Part shown: piece after piece, positions 4,902 through 35,756 of the stretch | Layout of the letters: each line of letters begins with the position of its first letter | How positions within the stretch are numbered: position 1 is the stretch's first letter | IMG/VR virus record: IMGVR_UViG_3300037475_000076 | Location: 1-46,835 of that record | From: a virus | Strand: one strand, 5' to 3' | DNA: 46,835 nt | The notes under the pieces: model-generated | Database searches by the model: none | What the model was told of the DNA's origin: nothing | What the model saw: the letters and a program-made list of their open reading frames with translations, nothing else | Made by a program: the position numbers and the translations under genes

Positions 4902-4947
4902 TTTTGTTCCTTCCCTTCCTTGGTTATGGGAGCGTACCCCGGCTCAA

Positions 4948-5139
4948 CTATTCCGATTCCAGTGAGCGCTTTACGGCATGGATACTCGGCAGCAATTCTC
5001 CGCCATCACTCTTACCCTTCGGAACATAACGCCAGCCTCCAACCTCTTTTTCGATTGAGCCGACGCGCTGATTCTCCAGATACACGCCAACCTGGATGAT
5101 TTCGTTGTTGCCGTTCTTGATTTCTTTGTACACGATCAT
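4948..5139 (-). CDS. Small hypothetical protein, beta-rich
   Basis: 63 residues; short strands (EIIQVGVYLENQRVGSIEKE, then GGWRYVPKG) followed by a helix. Similar small proteins that modify a residue-rich beta sheet occur in many phages, but no family can be named. Its ATG overlaps the stop of the upstream zinc-ribbon gene at 5136-5139. Confidence 0.6.
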   Translation of the reverse strand: MIVYKEIKNGNNEIIQVGVYLENQRVGSIEKEVGGWRYVPKGKSDGGELLPSIHAVKRSLESE

Positions 5140-5848: not shown

Positions 5849-7051
5849 ATGCAGCATTCATCTACCCTCAGCCTTTGGGCTGTTCCATCGCTTCCCGATC
5901 CTTCACAAAAGAAACCAGTTCACTCCGCAAGAAATCCAGCTACTAGCGTTCTGCCAGAGTTAGTACCACAAGATTTTGCGGTAGCGAAGCAAAAGCAAAC
6001 TGTTTTAGAATTCGGTGCATTCAGGTCAGACGAATTCGCCCTTCGTGCTGACCAGACGAGGGCCATCCTCATGCAATCTCCACACGAGTTACAGACGATG
6101 CCATTTGAAGCAGCCGCCGCAGTCTGGCTGGAGCTGCATAAAGAAGACATTAGTGAACGTACATTTAAGGACTATGAGTTTTACATCCGTTCACTATCCA
6201 AGAAGTTCAAAGGGACGAAGCTATCAGAGATTCACATAGGCCATGTCATGGAATTCCGCAAGGAACGCCAGCGCAAAGACCCCAAGGAAGGCAAGCGGGG
6301 GGCCGGGGCATGGTGTATTAACCATGAAATCAATACCCTGAAGCAGATCATGGAAATGGCCGGGCTGTGGGACTTAATCGAGAAGCATTACAAGCCGCTA
6401 AAAGTAAAGGAATCCGGACCGCCGCGCGTTCTGACGGTTGAAGAGGAAGAGAAGTTTTTCCGTGTGGTCTCCAGCAATCCAAACTGGTCAGTAGCTTATT
6501 GGGCTACCAGCCTGACAAACAATACGACCGCTCACGGCATCGAACTGCGGCGGATTCAACTCAAGCATATCGACTTGGAGCATAAGCCTCCCTTGTTGAT
6601 GGTGGTCTCCAACAAGACCGATTTCAGGCCGCGCAATATCCCCTTGAACTCAGTAGCCTTTAAGCAGATGACGCGGCTGCTGAAAAGAGCAAAGGAATTG
6701 GGAGCGTATAAGCCCGACCATTTCCTGTTCCCGTTCCGAATCAAAAAGGGCGAGTATGACGTTAACCGCCCAGCCAGCCCGTTCTTTATTCGCTCTGCTT
6801 TCCGTTCCATGCGCAAGGTCTTGGGGCCAGATTACGACTGGCTTAAACCAGGGACACTAAGAAACCAGTGTTTTACCAAGCTGTTCGAATCGGGTGCCGC
6901 CGATGAGACCGTGATCTCGATTGGCGGACACTCCGCCATCAAAATGAGTCGGTATTATTCCCGCATCCGCGCGACCGCGAAGCTGGACGCACTGGAGAAA
7001 ATCGCCCCGAAGTCTACGGGCAAGCGCAAGGATGTGGAAAATGCCGGATAA
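5849..7051 (+). CDS. int: Tyrosine integrase with altered catalytic boxes
   Basis: 400 residues, a usual length for phage integrases. A SAM-like core-binding domain lies at about 84-180 and the catalytic domain at about 195-385. Identifiable residues are the beta-hairpin Lys K256 (SNKTDFRPRNIPL), Arg-II R338 in GTLRNQ, His-III H361 in GGHSAIKMSRYY and the Tyr at 369 or 370. Two positions depart from the family: where Arg-I normally sits (NTTxRGxE type motif) the sequence is NTTAHGIEL, with His229 (codon CAC 6533-6535), and the HxLRH box reads GTLRNQ without the His. The gene lies beside an attP that is a tRNA 3' fragment, so it should catalyse phage integration and excision. Whether the enzyme is fully active with these changes is open. 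Confidence 0.9.
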   Translation: MQHSSTLSLWAVPSLPDPSQKKPVHSARNPATSVLPELVPQDFAVAKQKQTVLEFGAFRSDEFALRADQTRAILMQSPHELQTMPFEAAAAVWLELHKEDISERTFKDYEFYIRSLSKKFKGTKLSEIHIGHVMEFRKERQRKDPKEGKRGAGAWCINHEINTLKQIMEMAGLWDLIEKHYKPLKVKESGPPRVLTVEEEEKFFRVVSSNPNWSVAYWATSLTNNTTAHGIELRRIQLKHIDLEHKPPLLMVVSNKTDFRPRNIPLNSVAFKQMTRLLKRAKELGAYKPDHFLFPFRIKKGEYDVNRPASPFFIRSAFRSMRKVLGPDYDWLKPGTLRNQCFTKLFESGAADETVISIGGHSAIKMSRYYSRIRATAKLDALEKIAPKSTGKRKDVENAG

Positions 7052-11026: not shown

Positions 11027-11239
11027 ATGGCGAAATTCAGAAAGAAACCAGTGGTTATTGAGGCAATTCAGTGGCGCGGCCCAGAGGACGATTTGGAGTT
11101 ATGCCGGTTTGTGCCGCATGACAAATGGTGCCGCAACAGTGAAGGTCAGCCGTGCATTAAGACTCTGGAAAGCGGCAATGGTTTCCATATCGCGTCTGAG
11201 GGCGACTGGATTATCAAAGGCGTGAAGGGCGAATTTTAG
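11027..11239 (+). pseudogene. 5' part of a PGDYG-like phage protein gene, cut by the IS element
   Basis: From ATG 11027 (GGAGG ribosome site at 11016-11020) the frame runs MAKFRKKPVVIEAIQWRG ... GDWIIKGVKGEF and then stops at a TAG (11237-11239) whose last base belongs to the insertion element. The missing end, YPCKPDIFAATYEPAE, is found right after the element at 13284-13334. Before insertion the gene encoded 86 residues, a size and sequence typical of small phage proteins with the GDWxIxGxxGExYPCKPDIF pattern. Product is probably truncated and inactive. Confidence 0.85.
11231..11238. repeat. Target-site duplication, left copy
   Basis: GAATTTTA, identical to 13278-13285. Eight bases is the usual duplication length for IS1595-family elements; removing one copy plus the element restores the interrupted gene. 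Confidence 0.92.
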
Positions 11240-11261
11240 GGAATTATATACTTAAATCCCT
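11239..11261 (+). repeat. Left terminal inverted repeat of the IS1595-type element
   Basis: Starts GGGAATTATATACTTAAATC; matches the reverse complement of 13255-13277 at 20 of 23 positions. Its innermost base is the first base of a TTGACA box. Confidence 0.9.
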
Positions 11262-11289
11262 TGACAACAGTGCGGGAGTCAAGTATATT
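11261..11289 (+). promoter_or_regulatory. Promoter at the left end of the element
   Basis: Perfect TTGACA (11261-11266), 17-base spacer, TATATT (11284-11289). It drives the passenger gene and transposase. The -35 begins at the inner edge of the terminal repeat, so transposase binding to the repeat could repress it. Confidence 0.7.
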
Positions 11290-11308
11290 TAAAGGCATGG
11301 AGGACGTT

Positions 11309-11632
11309 ATGGTAATCACACAAAAAACCCTCGCCAAAGAGATAAAGGCGCGGGAACATGCCGATGGACGCTCAGACCATTTCCGCGTCGAGGAACGGAA
11401 CGCCACTGTAATAATTGAAGGTACATGGATACGCGCAACTGGCCCACACAGAGCTTGGAAGTACCTGTACTTTCTCAAGTTTGACGGCCAGCCCAAAGAG
11501 GGCGGGTACGACAGGCGTGATTCATTTGTCGCGTGGGCCATCAATAAGCTCAGACTGCCTGAGTTTGCGAATCGTTCAATGGCTGGTGCTGGCCTTCGGG
11601 ATAACAATGGCCGTTCCGTGGAGGAAGAATGA
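11309..11632 (+). CDS. Passenger protein 1 of the element (upstream of transposase)
   Basis: 107 residues from ATG 11309, chosen because GGAGG (11299-11303) precedes it at good spacing; ATG 11297 would be leaderless. Beta-rich centre (NATVIIEGTWIRA, KYLYFLKFDG) and an aromatic/basic patch; no known domain. Its stop overlaps the transposase ATG (ATGA at 11629-11632). Possibly a regulator of transposition or a cargo gene. Confidence 0.65.
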   Translation: MVITQKTLAKEIKAREHADGRSDHFRVEERNATVIIEGTWIRATGPHRAWKYLYFLKFDGQPKEGGYDRRDSFVAWAINKLRLPEFANRSMAGAGLRDNNGRSVEEE

Positions 11633-12549
11633 GTCGCTCGACAATCAGCACATTCCAACTTTTCGAGATGTTCCCGACTGCCGAATCTGCGCGGCTCTAT
11701 CTTGAGTCCCGCCTTTGGCCCGATGGCCCTGTCTGTCCCGCTTGCAAGGCCAGCGAAAGAATCACTACCCGCAAAGGTGGCTTCTATCGCTGCAATGCTT
11801 GTCAGATCGACTTCACCATCAGAACGGGAACTATCTTTGAGCGTTCCCATGTCCCGCTTCACAAGTGGCTTTATGCCATGTACCTGCTGGTTACAGCCCG
11901 TAAGGGCATCAGTTCGCTGCAACTGGCGAAGGAAATCGGCATCACGCAAAAGAGCGCGTGGTTTGTTCTCCATCGGATACGTGAGGCTTGCGGAGGCCCG
12001 AAGCTCACAAAATTGAAGGGCATCGTGGAACTTGACGAGTGTTTCATCGGCGGCAAGGAACGGAACAAGCATGAGCACAAAAAACTGAAAGCTGGTCGCG
12101 GTGCTGTCGGCAAAACTGCTGTGCTTGGAATGCGGGAGCGTGACGGTCGCACCATCCTTGCCCCGATGAATGAGCGCACTATGCAAGCCGTCACAGAGCA
12201 GATTCACAGCAACATCGAACTTGGTACGCAACTCTATACCGATGACGGTATCGTGTTCTCTGACCTTGACGGTCTGTTTTTCAAGCATGAATCCGTCAAT
12301 CATTCGGCTGGCGAGTACTCGCGGGGAGTGGCTACCACTAACAGCATTGAATCCGTTTGGGCGGTGCTCAAGCGGGGAGTTTACGGAACCTTCCATCACA
12401 TCAGCCCCAAGCATGTTGGCCGCTACACGGATGAATTTGCATGGCGGCTGAACGAAGGCAATGTAAAGAACCACACAACCGAGCGGCTGGACAGCATGGT
12501 TGGAGCCATCAGCGGAAAGCGGCTGACTTACGAAAGGCTGACCGCATGA
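11629..12549 (+). CDS. IS1595-family (ISXO2-like) transposase
   Basis: 306 residues. N-terminal zinc ribbon with C36, C39, C55 and C58 (VCPAC, RCNAC), a helix-turn-helix-like region at about 95-118 (LAKEIGITQKSAWFVLHRIR), then the DDE-type ISXO2 domain: D136 in VELDECFIGGK, D205 in LYTDDG, and the third acidic or Asn position in TTNSIESVWAVLKRG (N238/E241) followed by K248. It acts on the terminal repeats to move the element. Reading frame intact. Confidence 0.93.
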   Translation: MSRSTISTFQLFEMFPTAESARLYLESRLWPDGPVCPACKASERITTRKGGFYRCNACQIDFTIRTGTIFERSHVPLHKWLYAMYLLVTARKGISSLQLAKEIGITQKSAWFVLHRIREACGGPKLTKLKGIVELDECFIGGKERNKHEHKKLKAGRGAVGKTAVLGMRERDGRTILAPMNERTMQAVTEQIHSNIELGTQLYTDDGIVFSDLDGLFFKHESVNHSAGEYSRGVATTNSIESVWAVLKRGVYGTFHHISPKHVGRYTDEFAWRLNEGNVKNHTTERLDSMVGAISGKRLTYERLTA

Positions 12550-12716
12550 AACTACGCCATACGCCCGGTAAAGATGCAGCATTCCATCACGGCATAACGA
12601 TTGACCGTGAACCGCCGAAAGAACTGGACGCGATTGCCGATGTGGTTCTGAACTATCGGCCAAAATCAAAACAACCGAAGCCGCGCAAGCGGAAGAAGAC
12701 GAAAAAACAGAAGTAA
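12546..12716 (+). CDS. Passenger protein 2 of the element
   Basis: 56 residues from ATG 12546, overlapping the transposase stop (ATGA). N-terminal part is acidic/neutral (REPPKELDAIADVVLNYRP), the last 20 residues are almost all Lys, Arg, Pro and Gln. Short basic-tailed proteins of this style follow IS1595 transposases elsewhere as far as I recall, so it may assist transposition by binding DNA. Confidence 0.65.
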   Translation: MKLRHTPGKDAAFHHGITIDREPPKELDAIADVVLNYRPKSKQPKPRKRKKTKKQK

Positions 12717-12729
12717 ATTGGAGGGCAGC

Positions 12730-13038
12730 ATGAGAGTACAGATTTCGCAACTTGGCGGCAGTTTTGTGGTGAAAGATAAAAATGGAGATGTGGCAGCGAT
12801 CAGGCCCGATAAAGAGACAGCGGAAGCTTGCGCGTTCCAACTGTGGAAGATTGAGACTCTTCATCCATTGGCTGAAAAACTTAGCCAGCACAATGGGCAG
12901 CCCTACAGCGGAGACATGAAGCGTTCGCTGCATCAAGCAGCCATTCGGCTTGGAGTAGGGGATGATTACGACCGCAAAATGGCAGACGTGGTTCTCATTG
13001 AACTGGAATCCGAGAACCAAGAAGAAAGGCGCGCCTAA
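12730..13038 (+). CDS. Passenger protein 3 of the element
   Basis: 102 residues from ATG 12730 with a GGAGGG ribosome site. A short beta unit (FVVKDKNGDVAAIRPD) is followed by a helical domain ending in acidic residues. No known family. Stop overlaps the next ATG (TAATG). Confidence 0.6.
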   Translation: MRVQISQLGGSFVVKDKNGDVAAIRPDKETAEACAFQLWKIETLHPLAEKLSQHNGQPYSGDMKRSLHQAAIRLGVGDDYDRKMADVVLIELESENQEERRA

Positions 13039-13241
13039 TGCCCGGAGAAGTAAGCCGCTCAAATCCGGGGCCGCCTGATGACTCGCCTTACGTACCAAGT
13101 TGGTGCTACGACCCACCGGGGCCGCGCATGTGTAAGTGCGGTGACCATGAGGGCTACCACAACGACCAAGGGCAATGCCTTCGCAGTGGTCGTTGTGGCG
13201 GCTGTCGGTGCTCCGGTTTTGTTGAAGTGAAATCGTCATGA
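13038..13241 (+). CDS. Passenger protein 4 of the element, Cys-rich
   Basis: 67 residues; CKCGDHEGYH and CLRSGRCGGCRCSGF give seven Cys and several His in the C-terminal half, a probable zinc-binding module. Ends 36 bases before the right end of the element. Function unknown. Confidence 0.6.
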   Translation: MPGEVSRSNPGPPDDSPYVPSWCYDPPGPRMCKCGDHEGYHNDQGQCLRSGRCGGCRCSGFVEVKSS

Positions 13242-13254
13242 CTTTTAAGGAGTT

Positions 13255-13277
13255 AGGGAGTTATGTATGTAATTCCC
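13255..13277 (-). repeat. Right terminal inverted repeat of the IS1595-type element
   Basis: Reverse complement starts GGGAATTACATACATAACTC. Reading outward on the plus strand it contains GGGAG (13256-13260) and ATG 13263 in frame with the 3' remnant of the interrupted gene. Confidence 0.9.
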
Positions 13278-13334
13278 GAATTTTACCCCTGCAAACCAGA
13301 CATATTCGCTGCCACATACGAACCAGCGGAGTGA
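13263..13334 (+). pseudogene. 3' remnant of the interrupted PGDYG-like gene, fused to an IS-supplied start
   Basis: The remnant proper begins at the second target duplication (13278) and reads EFYPCKPDIFAATYEPAE to the TGA at 13332-13334. The element's right end provides a ribosome-site-like AAGGAG/GGGAG and an in-frame ATG at 13263, so a 23-residue peptide could be made from the remnant. Function is very unlikely, but the junction is tidy. Confidence 0.75.
13278..13285. repeat. Target-site duplication, right copy
   Basis: GAATTTTA, same as 11231-11238. The last four bases belong to the codons TTT and TAC of the interrupted gene. Confidence 0.92.
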
Positions 13335-13376
13335 ATTTTGGGCGGGAGCCGGAAAGCAATAACGGAGGACGAAACG

Positions 13377-14195
13377 ATGGAAACGCAGATTGAAGCACAG
13401 TTTGAAGTAGTTTCACCCGAAAAAACAAACGCGATTGAGCGCACACCGGCAATGCCACCTGTGGCCATTGCGCCGATTGCCAATACATCCATCGCAATTA
13501 TGGACCGCCTGATTGAACGGGGAGCCAGCCTGGAGCAGATGAAAGACGTGATGGCCTTCATCCGCGAACAAGAGGCCCATGAAGCCGAGAAGCTGTACAA
13601 CGCGGCAATGTCAGCATTTAAGGCCCACGATATTCACGTTGGCAAAGACAAGAGCAACAAGCAGTACGGCTCGAAATATACGTCTCTGGGAAACCTAATC
13701 AGCACTGTAACGCCTTTCCTGAGTCAGCACCGGCTGAGCGCAAGCTGGACAATCGACCAGTCCGCCGCGCCAGCGATAAAAGTGACCTGCATTATGAAGC
13801 ACGAAGCGGGTCATTCTGATTCGGTTTCCATGGTCTGCGGGCCTGATAAATCCGGCTCAAAAAACCCAATTCAGGAAATTAAATCAGCGATCACTTATTT
13901 GAAGGCGTGCACGTTTGAATCCATCTGCGGGATCGCTTCGAGCGATGCCAACCTGGACGATGACGGCAACGCGGCTGGCGCGAATAGTGCAAAGCCCACG
14001 CAGCGCATGGACGAAACCGAATACAAGGAACGCTGCGCATTCTTCCCGAAATGCAGCACTGTGAAAGAGTTGCATGACCATTGGCACGCCTCATACGGAG
14101 AGGCCAAAAAGATTGGCGACAGCACGGCGATGGAAGAGTTCAATCGCCTGAAAGATGAGCGTAAGAAGTCGCTCTTGAAAGACGTGGTGCGCTAA
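13377..14195 (+). CDS. erf: ERF family single-strand annealing protein
   Basis: 272 residues from ATG 13377, preceded by GGAGG at suitable spacing. The core at about 95-195 matches the ERF superfamily: an HVGKDKSNKQYGSKYTSLGN start, then beta strands and GSKNPIQEIKSAITYLKACTFESICGIASSD, in which GSAxTYxRRY-type sequences are usual. C-terminal part is a helical, charged tail. ERF proteins anneal complementary single strands and help circularise or recombine phage DNA. It pairs with the YqaJ exonuclease gene directly downstream (TAATG overlap), giving a Red-like recombination module. Confidence 0.85.
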   Translation: METQIEAQFEVVSPEKTNAIERTPAMPPVAIAPIANTSIAIMDRLIERGASLEQMKDVMAFIREQEAHEAEKLYNAAMSAFKAHDIHVGKDKSNKQYGSKYTSLGNLISTVTPFLSQHRLSASWTIDQSAAPAIKVTCIMKHEAGHSDSVSMVCGPDKSGSKNPIQEIKSAITYLKACTFESICGIASSDANLDDDGNAAGANSAKPTQRMDETEYKERCAFFPKCSTVKELHDHWHASYGEAKKIGDSTAMEEFNRLKDERKKSLLKDVVR

Positions 14196-14944
14196 TGAAC
14201 GTCTTAGGAATTTACTATCCGCAGCCTGAGTGGTATCAGGCCCGCTTGGGACTCATCACGAGTTGCAAGGTAAACGATGCCATAACCCTCAGGCAGAAGG
14301 GTGGCACTCACGATCTGGCAGCACGGCGCAAGCTGAAAATGGAGATTATTGCCGAAATGACCACTGGCAAAACTCCAGATCACTACGTTTCCGCTGCCAT
14401 GGATTGGGGAGTAGACAATGAACCCAAGGCGCGCAAGGAATATGAGTACCGCACAGGCCTAGAAGTTGAGCAGTTGGGTTTGGTGATGCACCCGACTAAC
14501 CCGCGTGCAGCAGCGACCGCAGACGGATGGGTGGCTCCGAATGGCATCCTGGAAATCAAGTGCCCTGAAACCTACACGCATCTTGAATACCTCGCTACCG
14601 GGGCAATACCAAAAGAATATCTCGATCAGATCAACTGGCAGATGGCTTGCTGCGGCCCGGAAATCGAGTGGTGCGACTTTGTTTCCTACGATCCACGGAT
14701 TGAGCATGAAGACCTGCAAATGCTCATCATCCGGCATGAACGCGACGACAAGCGCATTGCCGAGATGGAAGAAGCAGTGAATCAGTTCCTCTCGGAAACC
14801 ATTGCTCTATTTGAGCAGATCAAGCGCGGGGCCAAACACCAGACGCTCGAAGAAAAGTTGCGCGACAGCCTCAAAGCGACCGGCAAGTACACGGATGCCG
14901 AAATGATGGACATGCTCAGAGACGAAGGAATACAAGTTCCGTGA
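14195..14944 (+). CDS. YqaJ/lambda-Exo-like exonuclease
   Basis: 249 residues. Motifs follow the YqaJ viral recombinase domain: WYQARLGLITSCK at 13-25, E76 in GVDNEPKARKEYE, D110 in ATADGWV, E120-x-K122 in GILEIKCP and Q145 in DQINWQMACCG. These are the PD-(D/E)xK active site residues that bind two metals. The enzyme degrades duplex ends to give single strands for the ERF protein just upstream. C-terminal helix is charged. High confidence in family, inference for pairing. Confidence 0.9.
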   Translation: MNVLGIYYPQPEWYQARLGLITSCKVNDAITLRQKGGTHDLAARRKLKMEIIAEMTTGKTPDHYVSAAMDWGVDNEPKARKEYEYRTGLEVEQLGLVMHPTNPRAAATADGWVAPNGILEIKCPETYTHLEYLATGAIPKEYLDQINWQMACCGPEIEWCDFVSYDPRIEHEDLQMLIIRHERDDKRIAEMEEAVNQFLSETIALFEQIKRGAKHQTLEEKLRDSLKATGKYTDAEMMDMLRDEGIQVP

Positions 14945-22950: not shown

Positions 22951-23328
22951 ATGGCAGACGAACCCAACAAGGGCGGAAGGCCGCAAATTGAGATTGACGC
23001 AAAACTAGTTCAAGAACTTGCCAATGCTCAACTGACAACCGCTGAAATTGCAAAGATTTGCGGATGCTCCAAAGACACCATCGAGAGACGTTTTGCGGCT
23101 TCTCTAAAAGAATGGAAAGACGAGGGGGTAGGTTCGGTTCGCCGAAGGCTTTATCAATCAGCTCTCGGACAGATCAAAGGCGCAAGCCAGACAACTGCCC
23201 TGATTTTCTTTCTGAAGAACTATGGCGGATTGGCGGACGTGACGCGAGATGAGCAGCGAAAGCCCCTTGATTTTGGTGACCTCCCAACCCCAACCAGCCA
23301 GCCTGGAACAACTGGTAAACCCAACTGA
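22951..23328 (+). CDS. terS: Terminase small subunit (putative)
   Basis: 125 residues. An N-terminal helix-turn-helix (LTTAEIAKICGCSKDTIERR at about 30-49) is followed by a helical oligomerisation region, the usual plan of small terminase proteins that recognise the packaging site. It sits directly before the large subunit and overlaps it by 80 bases in another frame. The Pro/Thr-rich tail may contact TerL. Assignment rests on the HTH and position. Confidence 0.7.
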   Translation: MADEPNKGGRPQIEIDAKLVQELANAQLTTAEIAKICGCSKDTIERRFAASLKEWKDEGVGSVRRRLYQSALGQIKGASQTTALIFFLKNYGGLADVTRDEQRKPLDFGDLPTPTSQPGTTGKPN

Positions 23329-24799
23329 GCGCCAGCGTGAATTCCTTAAAGCTATTGCCGAAAAAGACTTCGTGCTTTATGGCGGAGAAGCCGGAGGGGG
23401 AAAGTCGTACATCCTTCGTTGGTGGTTGGTCACTTATCTCATCTGGCTTTATCGCGTATTAGGGCTGAGAAACGCTGCTGTAGGCCTGTTTTGCGAAGAT
23501 TATCCAACACTAAATGACCGGCAAGTTTCCAAGATTAAATACGAATTTCCTGAGTGGCTTGGCAGGTTGCGCGAAGGATCTGTCCACAACTTCGTGCTCA
23601 ATCCGGAGTATGGCGGAGGAATCATTCGTCTCCGCAACCTTGATGATCCCAGCAAATACTATTCTGCGGAATTTGCGGCTATTGCAGTTGATGAGCTTAC
23701 GCGAAACCCAAAGGCAATCTTTGACGATCTTCGGTTTCGGCTACGTTGGCCTGGCGTGGAAAGACCAAAATTTGCTGCTGGCACAAACCCCGGCGGACCT
23801 GGACACGCTTGGGTTAAGAAATACTGGATTACCAGAGACTATCCTCCAGAGCTGGAATCAATCAAAGATCAGTTTGTTCTTGTCCGAGCCAAAGCCAGCG
23901 ACAACCCACACATTACCAAGGGATACCATGAGCGCTTGCTTACGCTTCCGCCAGATATGGCGAGAATGGTTGCTCGTGGCGATTGGAACATTTACACCGG
24001 CCAGTTCTACCCGCAGTTTGAAGAAAAGCGCCATGTCATCACAGCGGATGAAGCCGCCAAGGAAATCAAGCCTTGGTGGACACGCTGGATTGCTGGCGAT
24101 TGGGGATATGAGCATCCGCACGCGATTTACTGGTTTGCTCAGAGCGAAACAGGCAAAGTCATCATCTACCGCGAATTGTGGGACAGGCGAGTGGGCGAAA
24201 CGGAGTTGGGTCGGAGAATTACTGAAGCCACGCCTAGAGACGAGAAGTTACGCTCTTTCGCATTCTCTTGGGATGCAGGCAAGTTAAGCCCACGAAGTAA
24301 GCCGAATCTACCTAAATCCATGATGCAGCTTGTAGCAGACGCATTGGGGCCACATATCCCACAACCTCATCCGGCAGACTCTTCTCCCGGTTCACGTATC
24401 AGCGGTGCAAGACTCTGGGGTCAGCTACTTGATTCCGATATGGTGCAAATCTCCGATGTCTGCCCAAAGCTGATTCAGTGCCTACCAACTCTCATCAGAG
24501 ACGAAGAGAACCAGGAAGACGTGCTAAAGGTTGATTTCTCAGAAAACGAAGTTGGCGACGATCCTTATGACGGCTCACGTATGGGACTTCAGCACATGGT
24601 TAACACGCCAATGCTGCCTGTGACAGTCATTGCTGAGCGCAGAGTAGCCCAATACGCAGCCGAACACGGCAAGGAAGTAGAAGACCTCGACATCAACTCA
24701 GTCGCCCAATTACACCGCAGAGCCACAGTACAGGAGCAGCGTAGGCGTGGCGCACGTAGAGGCGGTCTAGGGCGTGTCTGGCGACCGCAGAACAACTAG
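23249..24799 (+). CDS. terL: Terminase large subunit
   Basis: 516 residues, normal size. Walker A GGEAGGGKS at 45-53, Walker B AAIAVDELT with D148/E149, coupling motif AAGTNPGG at about 176-183, then the RNaseH-like nuclease: D284 in AGDWGYEHPHA, D342 in SWDAGK and an acidic DDPYDGSRMG near the C-terminus as the third metal-binding acid. The C-terminal tail is Arg-rich. It powers DNA packaging into the prohead and cuts the concatemer. The 774-base frame at 23514-24287 is a shadow. Confidence 0.93.
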   Translation: MSSESPLILVTSQPQPASLEQLVNPTERQREFLKAIAEKDFVLYGGEAGGGKSYILRWWLVTYLIWLYRVLGLRNAAVGLFCEDYPTLNDRQVSKIKYEFPEWLGRLREGSVHNFVLNPEYGGGIIRLRNLDDPSKYYSAEFAAIAVDELTRNPKAIFDDLRFRLRWPGVERPKFAAGTNPGGPGHAWVKKYWITRDYPPELESIKDQFVLVRAKASDNPHITKGYHERLLTLPPDMARMVARGDWNIYTGQFYPQFEEKRHVITADEAAKEIKPWWTRWIAGDWGYEHPHAIYWFAQSETGKVIIYRELWDRRVGETELGRRITEATPRDEKLRSFAFSWDAGKLSPRSKPNLPKSMMQLVADALGPHIPQPHPADSSPGSRISGARLWGQLLDSDMVQISDVCPKLIQCLPTLIRDEENQEDVLKVDFSENEVGDDPYDGSRMGLQHMVNTPMLPVTVIAERRVAQYAAEHGKEVEDLDINSVAQLHRRATVQEQRRRGARRGGLGRVWRPQNN

Positions 24800-26987: not shown

Positions 26988-27148
26988 TGCCTTGGCTGTC
27001 CAAGCGACAAGCCCGCTGGGGTCATTCTCTGGCGGGCCGTAATGGCATGTTTGCGACGAACGCGCAGCTTACCGCAGCAGCCAAGACGTTGCGCGACCGT
27101 TTCTTTACCGCAAAGAAAAACTCCCCACTTCCGTTGTCTATCGCTTAA
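26987..27148 (+). CDS. Small basic protein before the portal
   Basis: 53 residues (MPWLSKRQARWGHSLAGRNG ...) from ATG 26987, coupled by TAATG overlaps on both sides. Basic, no Cys. Possibly an assembly cofactor of the portal; no family recognised. Confidence 0.55.
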   Translation: MPWLSKRQARWGHSLAGRNGMFATNAQLTAAAKTLRDRFFTAKKNSPLPLSIA

Positions 27149-29589
27149 TGACCGACGAAGAACAATTAGCCGGAACAGATGAGCTTGGAGAAGGCTCTGA
27201 GCCTGAAACCGCTAGCGATGATCCGCTAGAAGGGCAGGAAGACCTCCAGAAAGCCCTGCTCACGCTTTATCAGAAGTGTTCTGCCGAAGACCGCTATCCA
27301 CGCCTTATTGAAGTCAAAGACGTGAAGCAGGCGGAAAACTATTGGGCTGGCAGGCAATACGATTGGTGGTCTAAATCGGAACAGACTTGGAAGCCGATCA
27401 CGACCGCAACGGGCGGAGTTGGACAGGGTATTGAAGCCGATGACATGCCACGGTTTCAGTTTGTAACCAACATCTATCAGGCCAGAGGCTTGATGATGAT
27501 TGGCGCGGTAGCGGGCGCACCGCCAAGATTGAGATTCTTCCCGAATGATGCGGATGACAGCAAAGACCTTGAAACCGCTGCTGGGCGAACGAAGCTAACA
27601 AAGCTGATTGAGCGCTGGAATCCTCCGCAGTTGATGCTTCAGGAAGAGACTTACCACGCATGGACAGGCGGATTTATAGCTTGGTGGACGCGCTATGTAA
27701 AGAATGGCGAAAAGTACGGCATTGATTCGGTTCACTTGCTCTCACAGGGAGCAGTAGATGCTGAGTCCTCGATAGTATGTCCGGAATGTGGATGGTCTGC
27801 TCCAGCCGACCAAGCTGTTCCGCCAGTTCCATGCCCTCAATGCGGACATCCGTTAACCGAAGAGAACGTGAGTGAGGAAGGCCCAATCCCTACGCCGGAA
27901 GAAGGCGGAACACAAGACGTTCCTAAGGGCCGTCAGATCATATCGGTTTATGGCGCATTGAATTGCAAGCGCCCACAACACACAAAATCGCAAAGCCAGT
28001 GGCATTACTTCTCTATCGAGGACGAAATCCACTACTCGACGTTGCGCGCTGCGTTTACGGAAAAAGCAGAACAGATCAAGCCGGGCATGGGTTTTGGTGC
28101 GGATGATGTTTTTGAGCGTAACGCACGTCTTTCGCTTTCCGAAAACGCAAAAGCTCCCACACAAACCTCTCAGGCGATGGCCAATTTAGTTACTACGGCC
28201 TTTGTGTGGTTCCGTCCTACAGCGTTTTGGATGATTGACGACAAAGATCAGAGAGAAAAATTGCTTGAGATTTTCCCGCGTGGTTGCCGGGTGGAATTTG
28301 CAGGGCTGGTTTATTGCACGTCTGAAGCCGAATCAATGGACGACGCGATTGTGAGCTGTCATGCCATGCCAGGAAGAGGCCAGCACAGGCCCGCCGTAGG
28401 GACTTCAACCATGTCGGTGCAGGACCGCGTTAACACCTTCACCAACATTGAAGCCGAGACTTACGAATACGGAATCCCAATCACTTATCGGGCAGCAGAC
28501 ACATTCTCATCTGAAGCCGATGACGACCAAACTGCGGCACCAGGATTAGAAATCGAAGTCGCACTAACACCGGGGAGTGACATACGCCAGAGGATCATGC
28601 AGGTAAGGGCTGATTCCGTCTCGCCGGACATGGCAAAACACACTCTGGATTTAATGGGGCCGGTAGCCGATCAGATGTCTGGAACTTATCCAGCATTGAG
28701 CGGCGCTGGCGGGGATCAGGGCGCACCCGACACACTAGGACAGCAGGCCATGCAGCGGGATCAGGCAATGGGCAGAATGGGAATCTTCTACGTTCCATTG
28801 AAGCAGGCTCATGCCGATGTGATGACGCTTTCCTGCCGTTCTTTAGAAGCGCATTCCGATGGCGAAGTAAAGATTCCGGTATTTGGTCAATCGGGTGATT
28901 TTGAGTCTGAATCGGTTGACGTAACTGCTCTTGAAGGCGAAGCAGAAGCCTATCCAGAAGGCGATGAGAATTTTCCGGAACTGTGGAACCAACAGCGGGC
29001 AACCATGATGCAGATTATGGACACGCCATACGGCCAAGCTCTAGCAAAAGAGCCGGGGAATGCTGAGTTGTTTGGCAAGATGACCGGAATACCAGAGTTG
29101 AAGATTCCCGGTCTCAATTCATGGCGCAAACAACTCAAGGAAATTTCAGAACTGACCAAAATCCCCGAAGGCGATGACCTGCTTGCTGGAATAGCGCCAT
29201 CGGTAGAAGTTGATTCTGACGATTTCCACGATATTGAATCGGCATGTTGCAAATGGTGGATGAACGCCGAACCGGGGCAGAAGATGAAGCGCGAAAACCC
29301 TATGGGATGGCTGGCCGTTAAGCAGCATAAAGCCCAACATGACGCGCAGATTCCTCCTCCGCAGCCCGCAGAGAAGCCAGCGACCGCCGGAGTGACGGCA
29401 GCATTGAAAGACATGCCACCTGAAGCACAGGCTCAGTGGCTCGAAAAAGAGTTAGGCATCAAGGTTGACGCAAATGCTTTCATTCAACAGATAGCGTTTG
29501 AAAAAGCCAAGAAGCCAGCACCGAAACCCATGCCCGGTTCGCCGCAACCGGACGGGAAGCAGTTACCTCCAGCGGCAGGAGTGCAGTAA
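27148..29589 (+). CDS. Portal protein (podovirus type) with a zinc-ribbon insertion
   Basis: 813 residues. Position after terminase and before scaffold and capsid, length, and the acidic N-terminus followed by YQARGLMMIGAVAGAPPRLRF-like core and a long helical C-terminal barrel mark it as the portal, the twelve-subunit ring through which DNA enters. At 211-232 there is a complete zinc ribbon (C211, C214, C229, C232: CPECGW, CPQCGH) in a loop region, which portal proteins of model phages lack. The C-terminus is Pro/Lys/Ala rich. I could not tell the exact family. Confidence 0.75.
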   Translation: MTDEEQLAGTDELGEGSEPETASDDPLEGQEDLQKALLTLYQKCSAEDRYPRLIEVKDVKQAENYWAGRQYDWWSKSEQTWKPITTATGGVGQGIEADDMPRFQFVTNIYQARGLMMIGAVAGAPPRLRFFPNDADDSKDLETAAGRTKLTKLIERWNPPQLMLQEETYHAWTGGFIAWWTRYVKNGEKYGIDSVHLLSQGAVDAESSIVCPECGWSAPADQAVPPVPCPQCGHPLTEENVSEEGPIPTPEEGGTQDVPKGRQIISVYGALNCKRPQHTKSQSQWHYFSIEDEIHYSTLRAAFTEKAEQIKPGMGFGADDVFERNARLSLSENAKAPTQTSQAMANLVTTAFVWFRPTAFWMIDDKDQREKLLEIFPRGCRVEFAGLVYCTSEAESMDDAIVSCHAMPGRGQHRPAVGTSTMSVQDRVNTFTNIEAETYEYGIPITYRAADTFSSEADDDQTAAPGLEIEVALTPGSDIRQRIMQVRADSVSPDMAKHTLDLMGPVADQMSGTYPALSGAGGDQGAPDTLGQQAMQRDQAMGRMGIFYVPLKQAHADVMTLSCRSLEAHSDGEVKIPVFGQSGDFESESVDVTALEGEAEAYPEGDENFPELWNQQRATMMQIMDTPYGQALAKEPGNAELFGKMTGIPELKIPGLNSWRKQLKEISELTKIPEGDDLLAGIAPSVEVDSDDFHDIESACCKWWMNAEPGQKMKRENPMGWLAVKQHKAQHDAQIPPPQPAEKPATAGVTAALKDMPPEAQAQWLEKELGIKVDANAFIQQIAFEKAKKPAPKPMPGSPQPDGKQLPPAAGVQ

Positions 29590-30963
29590 ATGTTTAAACA
29601 TCTCATTCTTCCTTGGCTACTTCCGATCTTTGGCATGTTCTTTTCTGCTGGGGCTGATGCCCTTGGAGCAGGCGGCGGCGAACCTGGCGCGGTAATTGAA
29701 TCCGGAGCAGAGGGCGATCTTGGCTATGGTTCCGATGTTGAAGACACCGGAGCCGAAGAACACGCCGATCTTGAGACAAAAGTTGAAGATAAGCCAGTTG
29801 CCGACAAAGAAGAGCCTGAAGCCTCAGAGTTTCGCGTTCCCGTTGGCCGCCGGATGGTGGGCTTGGTCAACAAATACCCCAAGCTGAAAGAAGCCTTTGC
29901 CACTCATCCGGAACTGCAAAAAGAGCTTGAACCTGTCTTTCGCCGGGAAGCTGCTTTCCGTGAAGTCTTTCCCACGGTTGCGGAAGCAAGACAGTTACGT
30001 GATGCTCTGCCGAACGGTTTGCAGGACCTTCAGCAGCTTCAATCTGACCTCAAAGAGACGGAGCAGCTCGATTCCGATTTCTACACCAAAGACCGCGAAG
30101 GAAATTATCCAGGCCATGCCAGGATCGCTGAAAACATGTTCCGCGATGACAAGGAAGCCGCTGTTTCGTTCTTCCGTGGCCTCCCGAAGCAATGGGCGCA
30201 ACTTGACCGCTCAAGCTACAACGAAGTCATGGGTAACATCGTTGGCGCGACAATCGCCAATTCGCGTGAATTTGAAATTCTTGACGAGGCCATTCAATCC
30301 GGCGATGCCAAAGCCATCGCTGCTGCGGCACACAAGATTCTGGGCTGGGCAGGCGGATATTTAAAAGGCAAACCGCAGCCGTCAGAACAAGAACAGCAGC
30401 TTCAACGTGAGCGCCAGAACTTCACCAAGGAGCAGCAAGACCGCGATAAACAGGACGGCCAGAAGTTCCATTCCAGTTTTGTTGCGGAGTCCAAAAAACT
30501 TCAGTCCAACATCATCAAAGGCCATCCGGCGGTTAAGAAACTTCTGGAAAACAAAGTAATTCCGGATGCCAAAAAAGCAGACATCATTGAGCAGGTACGC
30601 AAGAACGTAGAAAGCCTCTTGGGTAAGAGTCCGTCATTCATGAGGAAATTGCAGCCTGCTTATCAATCAAGAAATCTGGATGAAGTAGTCAACCTGCAAA
30701 AAGCGGCATGGTCGCAGCAGTGGTTATTGAATCGGATGGTGAGGACAGTTTTCAGCAAGGAAATACCGCAGTTGGTACAAAACAACCGGGAAACAGTGAA
30801 GCGCCGCGCTGGTGCGCCTCCTGTAAGCAGGCCCGGAAATACTGGCGACAAGAAAGACGCTCCCCAAGGCCCCAAGCAGATTGGTGGACGTTGGTACAGA
30901 GATGGCGGCAAGGGAGCGCCATTTTCAACCGCTGAAGTGTTGGCGGGAAAGCATTTGCTTTAA
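29590..30963 (+). CDS. Scaffolding protein (putative), unusual hydrophobic start
   Basis: 457 residues, begins next to the portal stop. After residue 26 it is strongly acidic (Glu/Asp/Ala/Gly) and then helical with coiled-coil-like Gln/Lys-rich parts (QRERQNFTKEQQDRDKQDGQ at 273-292), and ends in a basic segment, the standard composition of scaffold proteins. Residues 1-26 (MFKHLILPWLLPIFGMFFSA ...) look like a signal peptide or membrane anchor, which is odd for an internal head protein. Alternative: a secreted protein, but position between portal and capsid argues for scaffold. Confidence 0.65.
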   Translation: MFKHLILPWLLPIFGMFFSAGADALGAGGGEPGAVIESGAEGDLGYGSDVEDTGAEEHADLETKVEDKPVADKEEPEASEFRVPVGRRMVGLVNKYPKLKEAFATHPELQKELEPVFRREAAFREVFPTVAEARQLRDALPNGLQDLQQLQSDLKETEQLDSDFYTKDREGNYPGHARIAENMFRDDKEAAVSFFRGLPKQWAQLDRSSYNEVMGNIVGATIANSREFEILDEAIQSGDAKAIAAAAHKILGWAGGYLKGKPQPSEQEQQLQRERQNFTKEQQDRDKQDGQKFHSSFVAESKKLQSNIIKGHPAVKKLLENKVIPDAKKADIIEQVRKNVESLLGKSPSFMRKLQPAYQSRNLDEVVNLQKAAWSQQWLLNRMVRTVFSKEIPQLVQNNRETVKRRAGAPPVSRPGNTGDKKDAPQGPKQIGGRWYRDGGKGAPFSTAEVLAGKHLL

Positions 30964-31085
30964 AGCAGTTCCGGCATAAGCGATTTACGAGCAAAGTGAA
31001 CGCCTTTCTAACCGGGCCACGTTCCCCCGGCTCCTCGTGTGGCGATTGCCAATCCCAAAAATTTTGACATCACGAGGATAAATCT
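30956..31085 (+). promoter_or_regulatory. Leader of the capsid gene with a possible ribosome-site hairpin
   Basis: A perfect palindrome TGCTTTAAAGCA (30956-30967) spans the scaffold stop. Further on TCCTCGTG (31032-31039) can pair with CACGAGGA (31071-31078), which contains the Shine-Dalgarno sequence of the capsid gene (GAGGA, 8 bases before ATG 31086). The 8-bp stem would hide the ribosome site. No other gene is seen in 30964-31085. Confidence 0.45.
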
Positions 31086-32342
31086 ATGGCACCTCCAGCA
31101 AATATTCAGAGCGTAGCCCTGCAACTGGAAAAGGTACGCAAAAACGTACCGACAGCCTATGAGCAGGAGCACGTTCTACTCGACATGATCGACAAGCGAG
31201 GCGATGTAATTGACGCCTCAACCCGAAACATCCGTTTGCCTCAGCTCATTCGTCCAGGCGGGAAATTCTCTCAGGGAACCGCTGACTTTGACGATATGGG
31301 ACGTGGCTCCGGTTCAACCTGGGACGTAGGGACACTTTCAACCCTTCAGTTCCGCTTCGCCTTTGAAGTATCAAAGCTCGCTGAGTATGCGACCAAGGGC
31401 AATGACAAGGCAGTGGAAGATGTAGCTGTCCGCGAAGTTGCTGAAGCAATGAAGATGTTCAAGCGGGCCTTGGATTGCGTTTACAACACAAACGGCACCG
31501 GCCAGCTTGATAGCATTGCGGCAATCAGTGGAACCACGCTCACAGTTGCCAATCCTAACATTTTCTTCTTCAACCAGGACATTCAGGTTTACCCCACTGG
31601 CCTTGCTTCAGCCGCGCGCGGTCTTTGCACCGTAACCGCTGTTGATCCGCTGTTGAAAACCATCACCGTGAACGCTTTGCCCGCTGGCACAATCGTTGGC
31701 GATGCTCTGGTAATCAACATTTCACAGGGAGCAGGCGGAGCCAACCCGGTATCGCTCGAAGGTCTGCTGTACAACCACGTTGATTCGGCCTCGGGATCTT
31801 GGAACAACCTTGCCCGGTCAACTTATCCTGAAGCCCTGAAAACCCCGCACGTTGCCGCTGGCGGAGCGACCATCACTCCTGCCCTGAGACGCTTGGGAGA
31901 AAACAAACTCCGGCGCGTTCTGGGTGTGGATTTTGATGAGCCTCTGGTTACGTTCATGAACGTAGACCAGGAAGCCGCATGGGAGAACGTAGGCATAACC
32001 GTGACTACGAACATCCAAGCGCAGATTTCCGGCGAAAACTCACAGGACATGTTGAAGCGCCGTCCGCCGAAGACCTTTGGCGGCATTCCTATCAAGACTT
32101 CGATTCATGCCACGATCCAGCGCATTGACGTAATCGCGTTGAAGCATTGGGGGCGCGGCGTGACGAAGGAAGTTGACCTGTTTGAAGAAGGCGGGCAGAC
32201 CGTGTTTCAGCTCTATGGGCAGTCAGGCGGCTTGCTGGCTGGCTATATCAGCTACTTTGACACGGTTTTCAACGTGTTCATGGATCAGCCGCGCTTCGGT
32301 ATCTTCTGGGACGGCCTGGCTCTCCCGGTTGGCGGGTACTAA
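31086..32342 (+). CDS. Major capsid protein (putative)
   Basis: 418 residues. Position after scaffold, size, neutral composition with many Gly/Thr/Val residues, and a following terminator indicate the major capsid subunit; the helix-and-strand order (long N-terminal arm, TRNIRLPQLIRPGGKF, then a P-domain-like section, GEFQ/GGIPIKTSIH near 330) fits an HK97-fold coat. No cleavage site or delta domain is obvious. One long dedicated leader with a possible RNA hairpin suggests high, controlled expression. Confidence 0.75.
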   Translation: MAPPANIQSVALQLEKVRKNVPTAYEQEHVLLDMIDKRGDVIDASTRNIRLPQLIRPGGKFSQGTADFDDMGRGSGSTWDVGTLSTLQFRFAFEVSKLAEYATKGNDKAVEDVAVREVAEAMKMFKRALDCVYNTNGTGQLDSIAAISGTTLTVANPNIFFFNQDIQVYPTGLASAARGLCTVTAVDPLLKTITVNALPAGTIVGDALVINISQGAGGANPVSLEGLLYNHVDSASGSWNNLARSTYPEALKTPHVAAGGATITPALRRLGENKLRRVLGVDFDEPLVTFMNVDQEAAWENVGITVTTNIQAQISGENSQDMLKRRPPKTFGGIPIKTSIHATIQRIDVIALKHWGRGVTKEVDLFEEGGQTVFQLYGQSGGLLAGYISYFDTVFNVFMDQPRFGIFWDGLALPVGGY

Positions 32343-32353
32343 CTATTAACCCT

Positions 32354-32380
32354 GTGGTGGGTTTAGGCCCACCACGTTTT
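32354..32380 (+). terminator. Rho-independent terminator after the capsid gene
   Basis: GTGGTGGG (32354-32361) and CCCACCAC (32368-32375) form a perfect 8-bp stem with a TTTAGG loop, followed by GTTTT. Probably a partial terminator that lowers expression of downstream genes relative to the capsid gene. Confidence 0.7.
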
Positions 32381-32403
32381 CAACTTTATTCAGGAGAAAT
32401 TCG

Positions 32404-32823
32404 ATGCACGTAACTACCAAAGATGTTGATGAGAAAGGCACACACATCCTCACGTCAGTGCTTGAGGGTGATGGCCCGATTGCTCTGGCATCGGAGAAAG
32501 CCAAATTGTCTGCCACGGTCATTTCTGTACAGCGCACCGATTCCGGCGGCGTGAAAGTGCAGACTGCCTTAACCATTTCCGAACCCGCGCCGGAAGTCGC
32601 ACCGGAGCCTCTGAAGCCGGAGGATGAAGCAGTTGCCTATCTCGTAAGCAAGGGCTTTGCTGCGGATGCTGCTGTTGTCCACGTTGGCAAATTCGGGGCA
32701 ACCCGCGTTTTGGCCCAGCGTGACGCGGAGAAGGTTGCCGCAGACAAGCAGTTGGACGATGAACTGTCTGCCCTGCTTGCGCCAAAGAAAGAAGATGAAA
32801 AACCAACCGGGACAATCAACTAA
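32404..32823 (+). CDS. Small virion-region protein
   Basis: 139 residues; a beta-rich N-terminal half (HILTSVLEGDGPIALASEKA) and an acidic, Ala/Lys/Pro-rich C-terminus. AGGAG before ATG. Follows the capsid gene, as head decoration or completion proteins do. Function not established. Confidence 0.55.
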   Translation: MHVTTKDVDEKGTHILTSVLEGDGPIALASEKAKLSATVISVQRTDSGGVKVQTALTISEPAPEVAPEPLKPEDEAVAYLVSKGFAADAAVVHVGKFGATRVLAQRDAEKVAADKQLDDELSALLAPKKEDEKPTGTIN

Positions 32824-33492
32824 ATGCGGTCGTCAAAAGAAACACCGGAGCACCGCGAATGTCCGGAGCACGTTACCGAAGCTCTTCGCTTAGCGGGCGG
32901 AACAAACCGCTTTGGTGAGCCAATGTTCCGTGTTGTCTGGGGATTCAACCGCATTGTCCCCATGACAGGCCAGTGGGAAGAGTGGGGCCGATATGGGGCG
33001 ACACTGCGCGACAAGCTGACCAGTTACACGGAAACGCGGGAATTTATCAAGCTCGACAAGAGCGTGATAGAAACCCGCATGGTTCCCAAATACCTTCCCG
33101 GTAACTGCTGGCATTTGGAAATGTGGCGACCGCCAGAAGAGTACGGTTCTCCGGAAAATTGGCGCAAGGCTGGAGAAGAAGTCCTTCAGGGTATGACGGT
33201 TGACACTGCGGGGCCGTTTCCAGCAAGGGGAGAATACGAATTGTGTTATCCGCTCACCGATGACGCGAGTTCGCATGGAAAGCCCTTGCCACTTGTGGCT
33301 GATGTGGTTGCGGAAATTGTTGCCCAGATTCGTTGCGGAGCGGAGCGGTTCAACTTTCAGCAACGGAGAGCCGCGATTGAGCAACGGGAGATCAGGAAAG
33401 AAGAAGGTTTTGTTAAACGCACATGCGACATCCTGAAAGACGGTATGCCTGCATTTGCGGGAAATGAATTTGTTACCAAAACTGTGCAATAA
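32824..33492 (+). CDS. Hypothetical protein, late region
   Basis: 222 residues, basic and aromatic-rich (FRVVWGFNRIVPMTGQWEEW, GNCWHLEMWRPPEEYGSPEN). Such proteins lie between capsid and tail adaptor genes in several podophages but their role is not known to me. ATG directly follows the upstream stop. Confidence 0.6.
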   Translation: MRSSKETPEHRECPEHVTEALRLAGGTNRFGEPMFRVVWGFNRIVPMTGQWEEWGRYGATLRDKLTSYTETREFIKLDKSVIETRMVPKYLPGNCWHLEMWRPPEEYGSPENWRKAGEEVLQGMTVDTAGPFPARGEYELCYPLTDDASSHGKPLPLVADVVAEIVAQIRCGAERFNFQQRRAAIEQREIRKEEGFVKRTCDILKDGMPAFAGNEFVTKTVQ

Positions 33493-33522
33493 GCACTGAA
33501 AACGAGCCTAGGAGGGCTGCGA

Positions 33523-34407
33523 ATGTCTCAAGCAAAAATCATTATTAATGTGAGCGCGGAAGAACACTCCCACTCCAACGGACTATCGGGAACCTTGGTT
33601 GTTCCTGCCAAGACAGCGAATGAGGAGTTCGCCATGCTGGTTGTCTATCCTACCCCTGAGATTCAGGATATTGGCGACCAGAGAAAAACCGTTCATTGGC
33701 TGAAGGCAGGGCCGCTGGCAATGGATGTTGTAGGACTTCGTTCCGATGCGGCCGCTCACACAATGGGATCGACTGGCACAAAGGAAAAATGGGGGCTTCT
33801 GTTGTGCGAAGCGGAACCGGACGTTCCCAAAGAGCTTCTGTCCGCACAGGAATTGGAAATCGAGTTCCTTGACGATAACGCTCCTGATTACAAGATGCGG
33901 AAAGACAAGAAGTCTGGAGCTATCGTGCAGGTGGACGTGTCGCCTGTGGAAATCCAGGAGAGGAAATCTGAGCTATCGGCGGCGGTTGAAACGCTGCGGA
34001 AGAAGTTTGAACGCCATTGCAGAACGCTGGTCCAGGCAAAAGAAGTCGCACTGGCCAAAAAGAACCTTCTGAAGGAAGATGCGCGCCTTGTGGCGGAAGG
34101 TGATGCTTATTGGGCAGGAAACGAGCAGGACAAAAAGAACATCAACGCCATTCATCGGCGGGCCTGTATTCGTATGGGCCAAGAACGACCGTGGTGTTAC
34201 GTTCCGCAGAATTTGATTGATTGCCCTGGATGCGGAGCGAAGATCAAAGAGAACATTCTTTCCTGTCCGCATTGCGCCGGATTCCTTGATGAAGGTATTG
34301 AGGAACTGAGGGCAATGAAGCCCAGAGACAGGGCTATGAAGATGTACCCGGAACGCTACGCTGATCCGGTGCAAGCTTCAGGAGTTCCGAAGCAGCCCAG
34401 AGCGTGA
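33523..34407 (+). CDS. Hypothetical late protein with C-terminal zinc ribbon
   Basis: 294 residues. Beta-rich N-terminal domain, a helical middle (ERKSELSAAVETLRKKFERH, coiled-coil-like), and a zinc ribbon CPGCGAKI and CPHCAGF at about 237-256 near the C-terminus. GGAGGG ribosome site. Virion-associated or assembly protein; family unknown. A minus-strand gene overlaps its last 30 bases. Confidence 0.6.
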   Translation: MSQAKIIINVSAEEHSHSNGLSGTLVVPAKTANEEFAMLVVYPTPEIQDIGDQRKTVHWLKAGPLAMDVVGLRSDAAAHTMGSTGTKEKWGLLLCEAEPDVPKELLSAQELEIEFLDDNAPDYKMRKDKKSGAIVQVDVSPVEIQERKSELSAAVETLRKKFERHCRTLVQAKEVALAKKNLLKEDARLVAEGDAYWAGNEQDKKNINAIHRRACIRMGQERPWCYVPQNLIDCPGCGAKIKENILSCPHCAGFLDEGIEELRAMKPRDRAMKMYPERYADPVQASGVPKQPRA

Positions 34408-34542
34408 TATGCCCCAATACTCTCCTGGTTCTTGCCAATGAAGATCACGGCAATCTTTGAGAATAAAACCACAGGAAATGCAGCGGCGGTCGTTACTGTA
34501 ATCACCGGGAATTCTTTCTACGACTTCATGTTTGCATTCCAT
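34378..34542 (-). CDS. Lone minus-strand zinc-ribbon gene inside the late operon
   Basis: 54 residues from ATG 34542: starts MECKHEVVERIPGDYSNDRR, then CISCGFILKDC, and ends in GLLRNS. The C-x-H, CxxC and DLHWQEPGEYWG pattern is much more protein-like than the opposite-strand 43-residue frame (34438-34569). It occupies the only sizeable gap of this operon on the opposite strand, which is the position of a 'moron', a gene added to the phage with its own expression. No clear promoter or ribosome site seen. Confidence 0.6.
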   Translation of the reverse strand: MECKHEVVERIPGDYSNDRRCISCGFILKDCRDLHWQEPGEYWGISRSGLLRNS

Positions 34543-34556
34543 AGCCTGATTTTACC

Positions 34557-35333
34557 ATGCCAGTCTTAGCCTCATCCGCTTACAACACCTGTGAAGACGT
34601 TCTGACGCGAATCAGGACGATCTTGAACGATTCAGAAGTCGTGGGCGGCGACATCATCACAGATTCCGCGCCATTTACTTTTGACTTGCTTAACGCTGGA
34701 TTTGAAAGAGTCCAGCTTGAGCTTGCCAAGTATGGCGTGGAAGTCTCAACCACAGACGTTTGGATGATTGGCCTTCCGACTGTGCCAACGGTTGACCCGG
34801 AGGCGCGGATGATTATTGATGATTCAGGCTGCAACATAATTTACCCGAATGGTGTAGGGAACACGTTGGCTAGTACACCACGGCTTCCCGATGACCTGAT
34901 ATTGCCGCTTCGTATTTGGGAAAGACAGAACGGAACAACGAACGCTCTTGGGCTACCCATGAATCAACCGAATGGCGGGCTTACGTCGTGCTCTCAGGGA
35001 ACCTACCTTAACGAATGGGAGTGGAAGAACGACGGCATCCGATTTCGTGGAGCAACTCAGTCTCAAGACATAAAGGTTTTGTATGAAAAACACCTTCAGA
35101 AGTTAGTTGCCCCTACTGATCCTGTTCCGATTCGCGGCGTAGTGAACGCAGCAGCTTATTTTTCATCGAAGATTTTTGCCGACAGCCGGGGAGCCGCGAT
35201 TGCTCCAGAAGCGAAGGCTTCGGCAATGGAAGAAATTTTCCTTTTGCAGCAGATTTCAGTCCGTAGAAGGCAGAGAAAACAGGTTCGCAGAGGTCCATAT
35301 TCAGGCCGCGGCGGAAGACAAAGATTTCTATAA
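34557..35333 (+). CDS. Tail adaptor / head-tail connector protein (T7 gp11-like position)
   Basis: 258 residues. Begins with a helical domain (ASSAYNTCEDVLTRIRTILN) as in tail adaptors that dock under the portal, then beta-rich sequence with GLPMNQPNGG and a basic Arg-rich tail (RRRQRKQVRRG). Gene order capsid, adaptor, small protein, large tail protein is that of short-tailed phages. Function inferred from order and features. Confidence 0.65.
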   Translation: MPVLASSAYNTCEDVLTRIRTILNDSEVVGGDIITDSAPFTFDLLNAGFERVQLELAKYGVEVSTTDVWMIGLPTVPTVDPEARMIIDDSGCNIIYPNGVGNTLASTPRLPDDLILPLRIWERQNGTTNALGLPMNQPNGGLTSCSQGTYLNEWEWKNDGIRFRGATQSQDIKVLYEKHLQKLVAPTDPVPIRGVVNAAAYFSSKIFADSRGAAIAPEAKASAMEEIFLLQQISVRRRQRKQVRRGPYSGRGGRQRFL

Positions 35334-35342
35334 GGAGAAATT

Positions 35343-35753: not shown

Positions 35754-35756
35754 TCC

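Follow-up and report, generated by a model that had tools for sequence, protein, structure and literature searches.

Transporter insertion sequences (tIS) of the IS1595 family were reportedly described by Siguier, Gagnevin and Chandler in 2009. Passenger-bearing elements of this kind are known, including ISNha5, which carries a regulator (PMC11891212; PMC3129680). In phages, insertion sequences have been described as rare (PMC8136500), and transposases are very rare (0.3-0.5%) among recombining phage genes (PMC10879196).

We analysed a window of 46,835 nucleotides, which is the entire 46.8-kb virus record IMGVR_UViG_3300037475_000076, and found within it an element that shares features with each of these systems. 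Like the IS1595 transporter IS, it combines a zinc-ribbon IS1595 transposase, inverted repeats, an 8-bp duplication and passengers unrelated to transposition. Its lineage differs from them in residing mainly in viral contigs and in having cargo that is apparently obligatory and fast-changing (a comparison that did not extend to ISfinder), as well as in possessing a conserved basic companion ORF and a half-repeat in the promoter. As with insertion sequences in temperate phages (PMC8136500; PMC10879196), carriage by phages is tied to gene exchange; however, the elements in those accounts are presented as rare and generically bacterial, whereas here one lineage, with its own pool of cargo, is spread over hundreds of viral contigs. 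In related elements, the cargo includes the gene families of phage morons and counter-restriction genes (orphan methyltransferases, Mom, Dam, Lar), but here these genes lie on a small transposon between inverted repeats and are not fixed phage genes. None of these families was recognised in the window's own element. On the basis of sequences that are all metagenomic, we consider it likely that this is an intact, probably active IS1595 transporter IS whose lineage moves mainly among phages and occasionally into bacterial chromosomes.

The element and its insertion site

An IS1595-type transposon with extra genes had been proposed to lie within a phage gene, and this is borne out by the repeats, the duplication and matches to PF12762, PF12760 and NF033547. 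The element is 2,039 bp long (11239-13277, exactly as in the preliminary description) and sits whole inside the phage gene. The ORF list confirmed four small extra genes, on the same strand as the transposase and overlapping or closely spaced. The features are as follows.

11027-11239, plus strand: phage gene resembling phrog_419/1810, broken by the insertion; the first base of the element completes its TAG stop
11231-11238: left copy of the target duplication, GAATTTTA, a perfect match to 13278-13285
11239-11260, plus strand: left terminal inverted repeat, 22 bp, GGGAATTATATACTTAAATCCC, 19/22 identical to the right repeat
11261-11289, plus strand: promoter-like site, -35 TTGACA at 11261-11266, -10 TATATT at 11284-11289, spacer 17; placement repeated in related elements
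11274-11288, plus strand: candidate operator GGGAGTCAAGTATAT, corresponding to the inner half of the repeat in inverted orientation, 13/15 match to its own repeat
11297 or 11309-11632, plus strand: ORF-A, cargo, 111 aa, or 107 aa from ATG 11309, which is preceded by GGAGG; overlaps the transposase start
11629-12549, plus strand: IS1595-family transposase, probably of DDE type, 306 aa, with N-terminal zinc ribbon (PF12762, PF12760, NF033547)
12546-12716, plus strand: ORF-C, 56-aa basic companion protein (alignment and HMM); its ATG overlaps the transposase stop (ATGA)
12730-13038, plus strand: ORF-D, cargo, 102 aa; GGAGGG ahead of ATG 12730
13038-13241, plus strand: ORF-E, cargo, 67 aa, Cys-rich (CxCGxH...C...C..C.C); its start overlaps the ORF-D stop (TAATG)
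13256-13277, minus strand: right terminal inverted repeat, reverse complement GGGAATTACATACATAACTCCC, 19/22 against the left repeat
13278-13285: right copy of the target duplication, GAATTTTA, forming a perfect 8-bp pair with the left copy

The perfect 8-bp duplication was thus recovered as first described. The inverted repeats, originally given as 23 bp, are present but were taken as 22 bp with 19 matches; one further base brings the count to 20/23. The consensus terminal repeat of the lineage is GGGAATTATATACTTGACTCCC, and this repeat pair is common to the 120 elements that we delimited by both repeats, 88 of which are flanked by perfect AT-rich 8-bp duplications. The first set contained 93 unique elements (65/93 with perfect duplications, A+T 84%, pattern NWWNNWWN), and a held-out set from a second scan contributed 27 more, 23 of them with perfect duplications.

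The transposase matched the IS1595 (ISXO2-like) catalytic domain (PF12762, E = 3e-41, 141 bits against a cut-off of 27), the N-terminal zinc ribbon (PF12760, E = 3e-9, 37 bits against 25.4) and NF033547 (E = 9e-55, 186 bits against 75). Among candidates for the catalytic DDE-type residues, D136, D205, N238 and E241 are invariant, and K248 nearly so, in 13 members of the lineage. Plasmid-borne relatives are at most 43% identical among the matches listed. With its catalytic domain, zinc ribbon, terminal inverted repeats and 8-bp duplication, the element shows characters of the IS1595 family.

The insertion cuts off the last 16 codons of the phage gene, which continue beyond the element to a TGA at about 13335, and the new TAG stop consists of the final TA of the duplication and the first G of the element. 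When rejoined, the gene encodes an 86-aa product with matches in 752 phage records, and in 717 of these the match spans at least 80% of that product; on these matches the interrupted gene is a genuine, widespread small phage gene.

The carrier is probably a temperate tailed phage. The window encodes a tyrosine integrase (5849-7051), an ERF annealing protein and a YqaJ exonuclease (13338-14944) and a terminase-like protein (23249-24799). For five of the largest late-region ORFs (27148-45033), Pfam gave no match at E <= 0.001. No phage relatives were returned by a search with the ERF protein, and one, at 88% identity, by a search with the terminase. In L224, a phage related to that of the window (terminase 55%), a 21-codon stretch at 936-998 resembles the transposase C-terminus and is perhaps a remnant of the lineage.

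Companion gene, promoter and cargo

ORF-C is the only conserved extra gene, and it is specific to the lineage. In the alignment it has a core motif, LDAIADVVLAYRPKPK, followed by a Lys/Arg tail. Its HMM matched 85 of the 93 elements, in every case on the transposase strand and in 80 downstream of the transposase, as well as 32 of 33 held-out loci; there were no matches in 599 kb of flanks or in four plasmid relatives. A search of plasmids and phages with the ORF-C consensus gave no match under a low-complexity filter that may have masked the tail. The extra genes had originally been regarded as cargo or helpers. They are in fact of two kinds: Lys/Arg-rich ORF-C accompanies the transposase almost universally, and the other three are variable cargo. 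From its conservation and position, we infer that ORF-C is a transposition helper. In one MAG-borne element (L084) an additional 59-aa ORF (MRRTRDWNLQVEWKPQDCWIGAFWRR...) at 4915-5094 lies between the transposase and the companion, and represents another cargo position.

The promoter-like site is an 11/12 match, and its -35 box begins at 11261, directly adjoining the 22-bp repeat, which agrees with the preliminary description in placing it at the inner edge of the left repeat. By count alone one such site is not above chance (shuffles mean 1.9), so support for the promoter comes from where it lies and from its being conserved in related elements. The inverted half-repeat GGGAGTCAAGTATAT falls in the interval between the -35 box and the final base of the -10 box. 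Half-repeats at 12/15 or better were found in 19 of the 93 elements, compared with 0.4 expected in shuffles; a clear operator of this type is thus present in only about one fifth of elements. The half-repeats resemble the terminal repeats of the element in which they lie more closely than those from elsewhere in the set (0/300 permutations), in a test that is lenient as the sequences are related. Because the promoter overlaps the inverted half-repeat, the arrangement suggests autorepression by the transposase. In other members TTGACT occurs within the terminal repeat itself and could serve as the -35 box.

Four viral contigs encode relatives of ORF-E at 61-67% identity, and the DNA examined around these relatives contains neither a transposase nor a repeat. 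Hence the notion that the passengers might be phage genes present at this locus without the transposase holds in part: relatives of ORF-E do occur in this way, but at other loci. Searches with ORF-D of viral contigs, of phages and of 297 Acidobacteriota genomes returned no relatives, and there was no family match; a similarity to a microcompartment protein (E = 0.005), in which no stretch passed by itself, was not accepted. ORF-A had no family match and no accepted relative in phages, and what it shares with L002, the nearest relative of the window's element (transposase 97% identical), is limited to its final 17 codons. A weak match of ORF-A lay in a frame judged spurious, running opposite to another gene, and was not counted as a relative, nor did we accept a weak similarity to a ubiquitin-like protein from bacteria (E = 0.07). 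Family searches found no modification or anti-restriction families in the window's own cargo. Single-sequence structure models of the cargo were poor (mean pLDDT 61 and 63), with no solved-structure match.

DNA similarity between the window's element and L002 is confined to positions 1-84, 347-1465 and 2009-2039 of the element (core 87% identical), and both cargo slots therefore differ. L002 shares the ends, the transposase and the companion, but lacks ORF-D and ORF-E and retains only the end of ORF-A. The five-gene cassette first envisaged is consequently not a fixed unit, as different DNA occupies both slots even at 97% transposase identity. Relatives do share both end repeats with the window's element, but the passenger order differs. 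In its nearest relative, ORF-A, ORF-D and ORF-E are missing or different, and ORF-E also occurs without a transposase, as expected of the passengers of a transporter IS.

No bare element was found among the 120, all of which carry at least 539 nt in addition to the transposase. Within the first set, 42 elements have cargo solely upstream, 32 solely downstream and 15 on both sides, and passengers other than the companion, as called mechanically from ORFs, are nearly all unique among the 93. The transposase genes of L006 and L008 are 90% identical in DNA, and yet their cargo and the side on which it lies differ. Some cargo genes have relatives that are ordinary genes in the flanking DNA of other phages: the L009 methyltransferase (49%, flank of L012/L013), the L059 cargo (46%, flank of L070) and the L045/L064 PAPS reductase (about 50%, flank of L058/L060). 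L009 and L015 are two different lineage elements with different cargo on one 60-kb phage contig (IMGVR_UViG_3300048824_000144).

Functions were assigned to a minority of cargo genes. Recognised counter-restriction families are found in other members, in contrast to the window's element, in which none was recognised. C5 cytosine methyltransferases are carried by L010, L011, L049/L055/L057, L100 and L107, and by similarity L009; N4/N6 methyltransferases by L005 and L046; Dam, just under the cut-off, by L040; Mom by L008; and the Lar restriction-alleviation protein by L044. PAPS-reductase-like cargo was found in L045 and L090, and by similarity in L064 and L051. Enrichment was assessed in 50 carrier contigs (2.61 Mb) with two outside profiles, PF00145 and PF01555, by mapping coordinates to elements. 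Six of 35 methyltransferase genes lie inside elements, against 1.3 expected by element length (P = 0.0017) and 0.7 by non-transposase length (P = 5e-5). With strict cut-offs the figure is 5/32 (P = 0.006 and 0.0003, respectively). Methyltransferases are thus about 5-9 fold enriched inside elements.

It could be speculated that this phage-adapted transposon lineage is a vector for counter-defence genes, hopping between co-infecting phages and prophages. Its cargo would always be swappable and DNA-shielding, and would include small anti-defence proteins that have escaped recognition, ORF-A, ORF-D and ORF-E among them; the basic companion and the transposase-repressed promoter would be dedicated parts of it. 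We offer this fuller reading only tentatively.

Distribution of the lineage and alternative explanations

A phage-borne copy had been thought unusual. We found instead that the lineage is common in viral contigs and scarce in sampled host genomes, and so phage carriage is not unusual here. The transposase query identified 153 viral contigs with relatives, of which 80 were kept (63-97% identical), and a family profile identified 341 transposase relatives in viral contigs. Viral identity of the carrier contigs rests mainly on the IMG/VR classification, since the terminase PF03237, a narrow marker, was found in only 14 of 50. A preference for insertion between genes was not clear, with 31 of 40 insertions in ORFs against 34.5 expected.

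One alternative is that an ordinary bacterial IS1595 transporter IS has landed in phages, which would then be passive vehicles for neutral baggage. There are indeed chromosomal copies, which in the tree are interspersed with viral ones, and passenger genes were already known in IS1595 elements (PMC11891212; PMC3129680). However, the query that found 153 viral relatives found only 49 loci in one-per-species genomes, despite a collection of 257 Gb; the per-base rate in viruses would be about 14 times that in genomes, or more, assuming that viral contigs average 20 kb or less. Among the 297 genomes of the Acidobacteriota sample, the lineage occurs in the seed genome only. A control plasmid IS1595 transposase gave 121 matches in the same viral collection, only 3 of them at 60% identity or more, and a number of the remainder fall on contigs where the lineage studied here had already been found. 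That every element has extra DNA and that methyltransferase cargo is enriched also argue against neutral baggage. We therefore regard this alternative as unlikely.

In the tree, 99/93 support separates the lineage from IS1595 transposases of four plasmid elements. The intermixing of viral and genome copies indicates that it crosses between viruses and genomes. A strictly phage-only lineage, in which the genome copies would be prophages, was rejected because copies in bacterial genomes are mostly flanked by chromosomal genes. Judged by these distributions, the lineage is phage-enriched but not phage-only. Two further relatives were noted in MAGs: L116 (2148-6884, Caldilineaceae) is a 4.7-kb element with a perfect duplication, large cargo and a weak companion match, and L118 (4001-7872, Leptospirales) is a distant relative with large ORFs beside the transposase that resemble type I restriction-modification genes; the N6_Mtase and Methylase_S matches of the cargo scan may belong to this element.

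Another possibility is that the window's element is a dead relic, immobile, and that its passengers are phage genes trapped nearby. It is present as a single copy in the virus record, and no movement was observed. On the other hand, its two ends, its duplication and its reading frames are all intact, and related copies occupy many different sites. The one close phage relative (terminase 88%) has no insertion and lacks the passengers beside its ERF/exonuclease genes; together with the perfect duplication, this points to a past insertion of the element. A relic is thus very improbable. Least probable is that all four extra genes help the transposase in transposition or regulation: they are co-directional and coupled and ORF-C is conserved beside the transposase, but the near-uniqueness of the others among the 93 elements, their absence or truncation in L002 and the existence of ORF-E relatives without a transposase leave a helper role for ORF-A, ORF-D and ORF-E disfavoured.

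Proposed mechanism and significance

For an active transporter IS moving mainly among phages, we propose the following mechanism. The transposase would excise or copy the element and insert it in AT-rich DNA. A single transcript would arise from the promoter abutting the left repeat, and the transposase would also bind the inverted half-repeat in this promoter and so limit its own expression. ORF-C, produced by translational coupling, may aid the transposase, acting as a small protein that binds DNA or helps to build the complex. Cargo would be gained or exchanged by recombination between elements with conserved ends and core; it would be drawn from the phage accessory gene pool and kept for its benefit to the carrying phage, which in many members may be protection of DNA from restriction.

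No description of the lineage was found in the open-licence literature, with ISfinder outside the comparison, and a large lineage that, from its sequences, appears to move mainly among soil and environmental phages is apparently undescribed. A lineage that is never bare, is rich in methyltransferases and occurs in hundreds of viral contigs would let unrelated phages trade counter-defence genes. Its 22-bp repeats provide a search handle, as any gene between them is a candidate anti-restriction or host-takeover gene, and many unknown small phage proteins thereby become testable. The near-universal companion peptide poses a new question for transposase biology.
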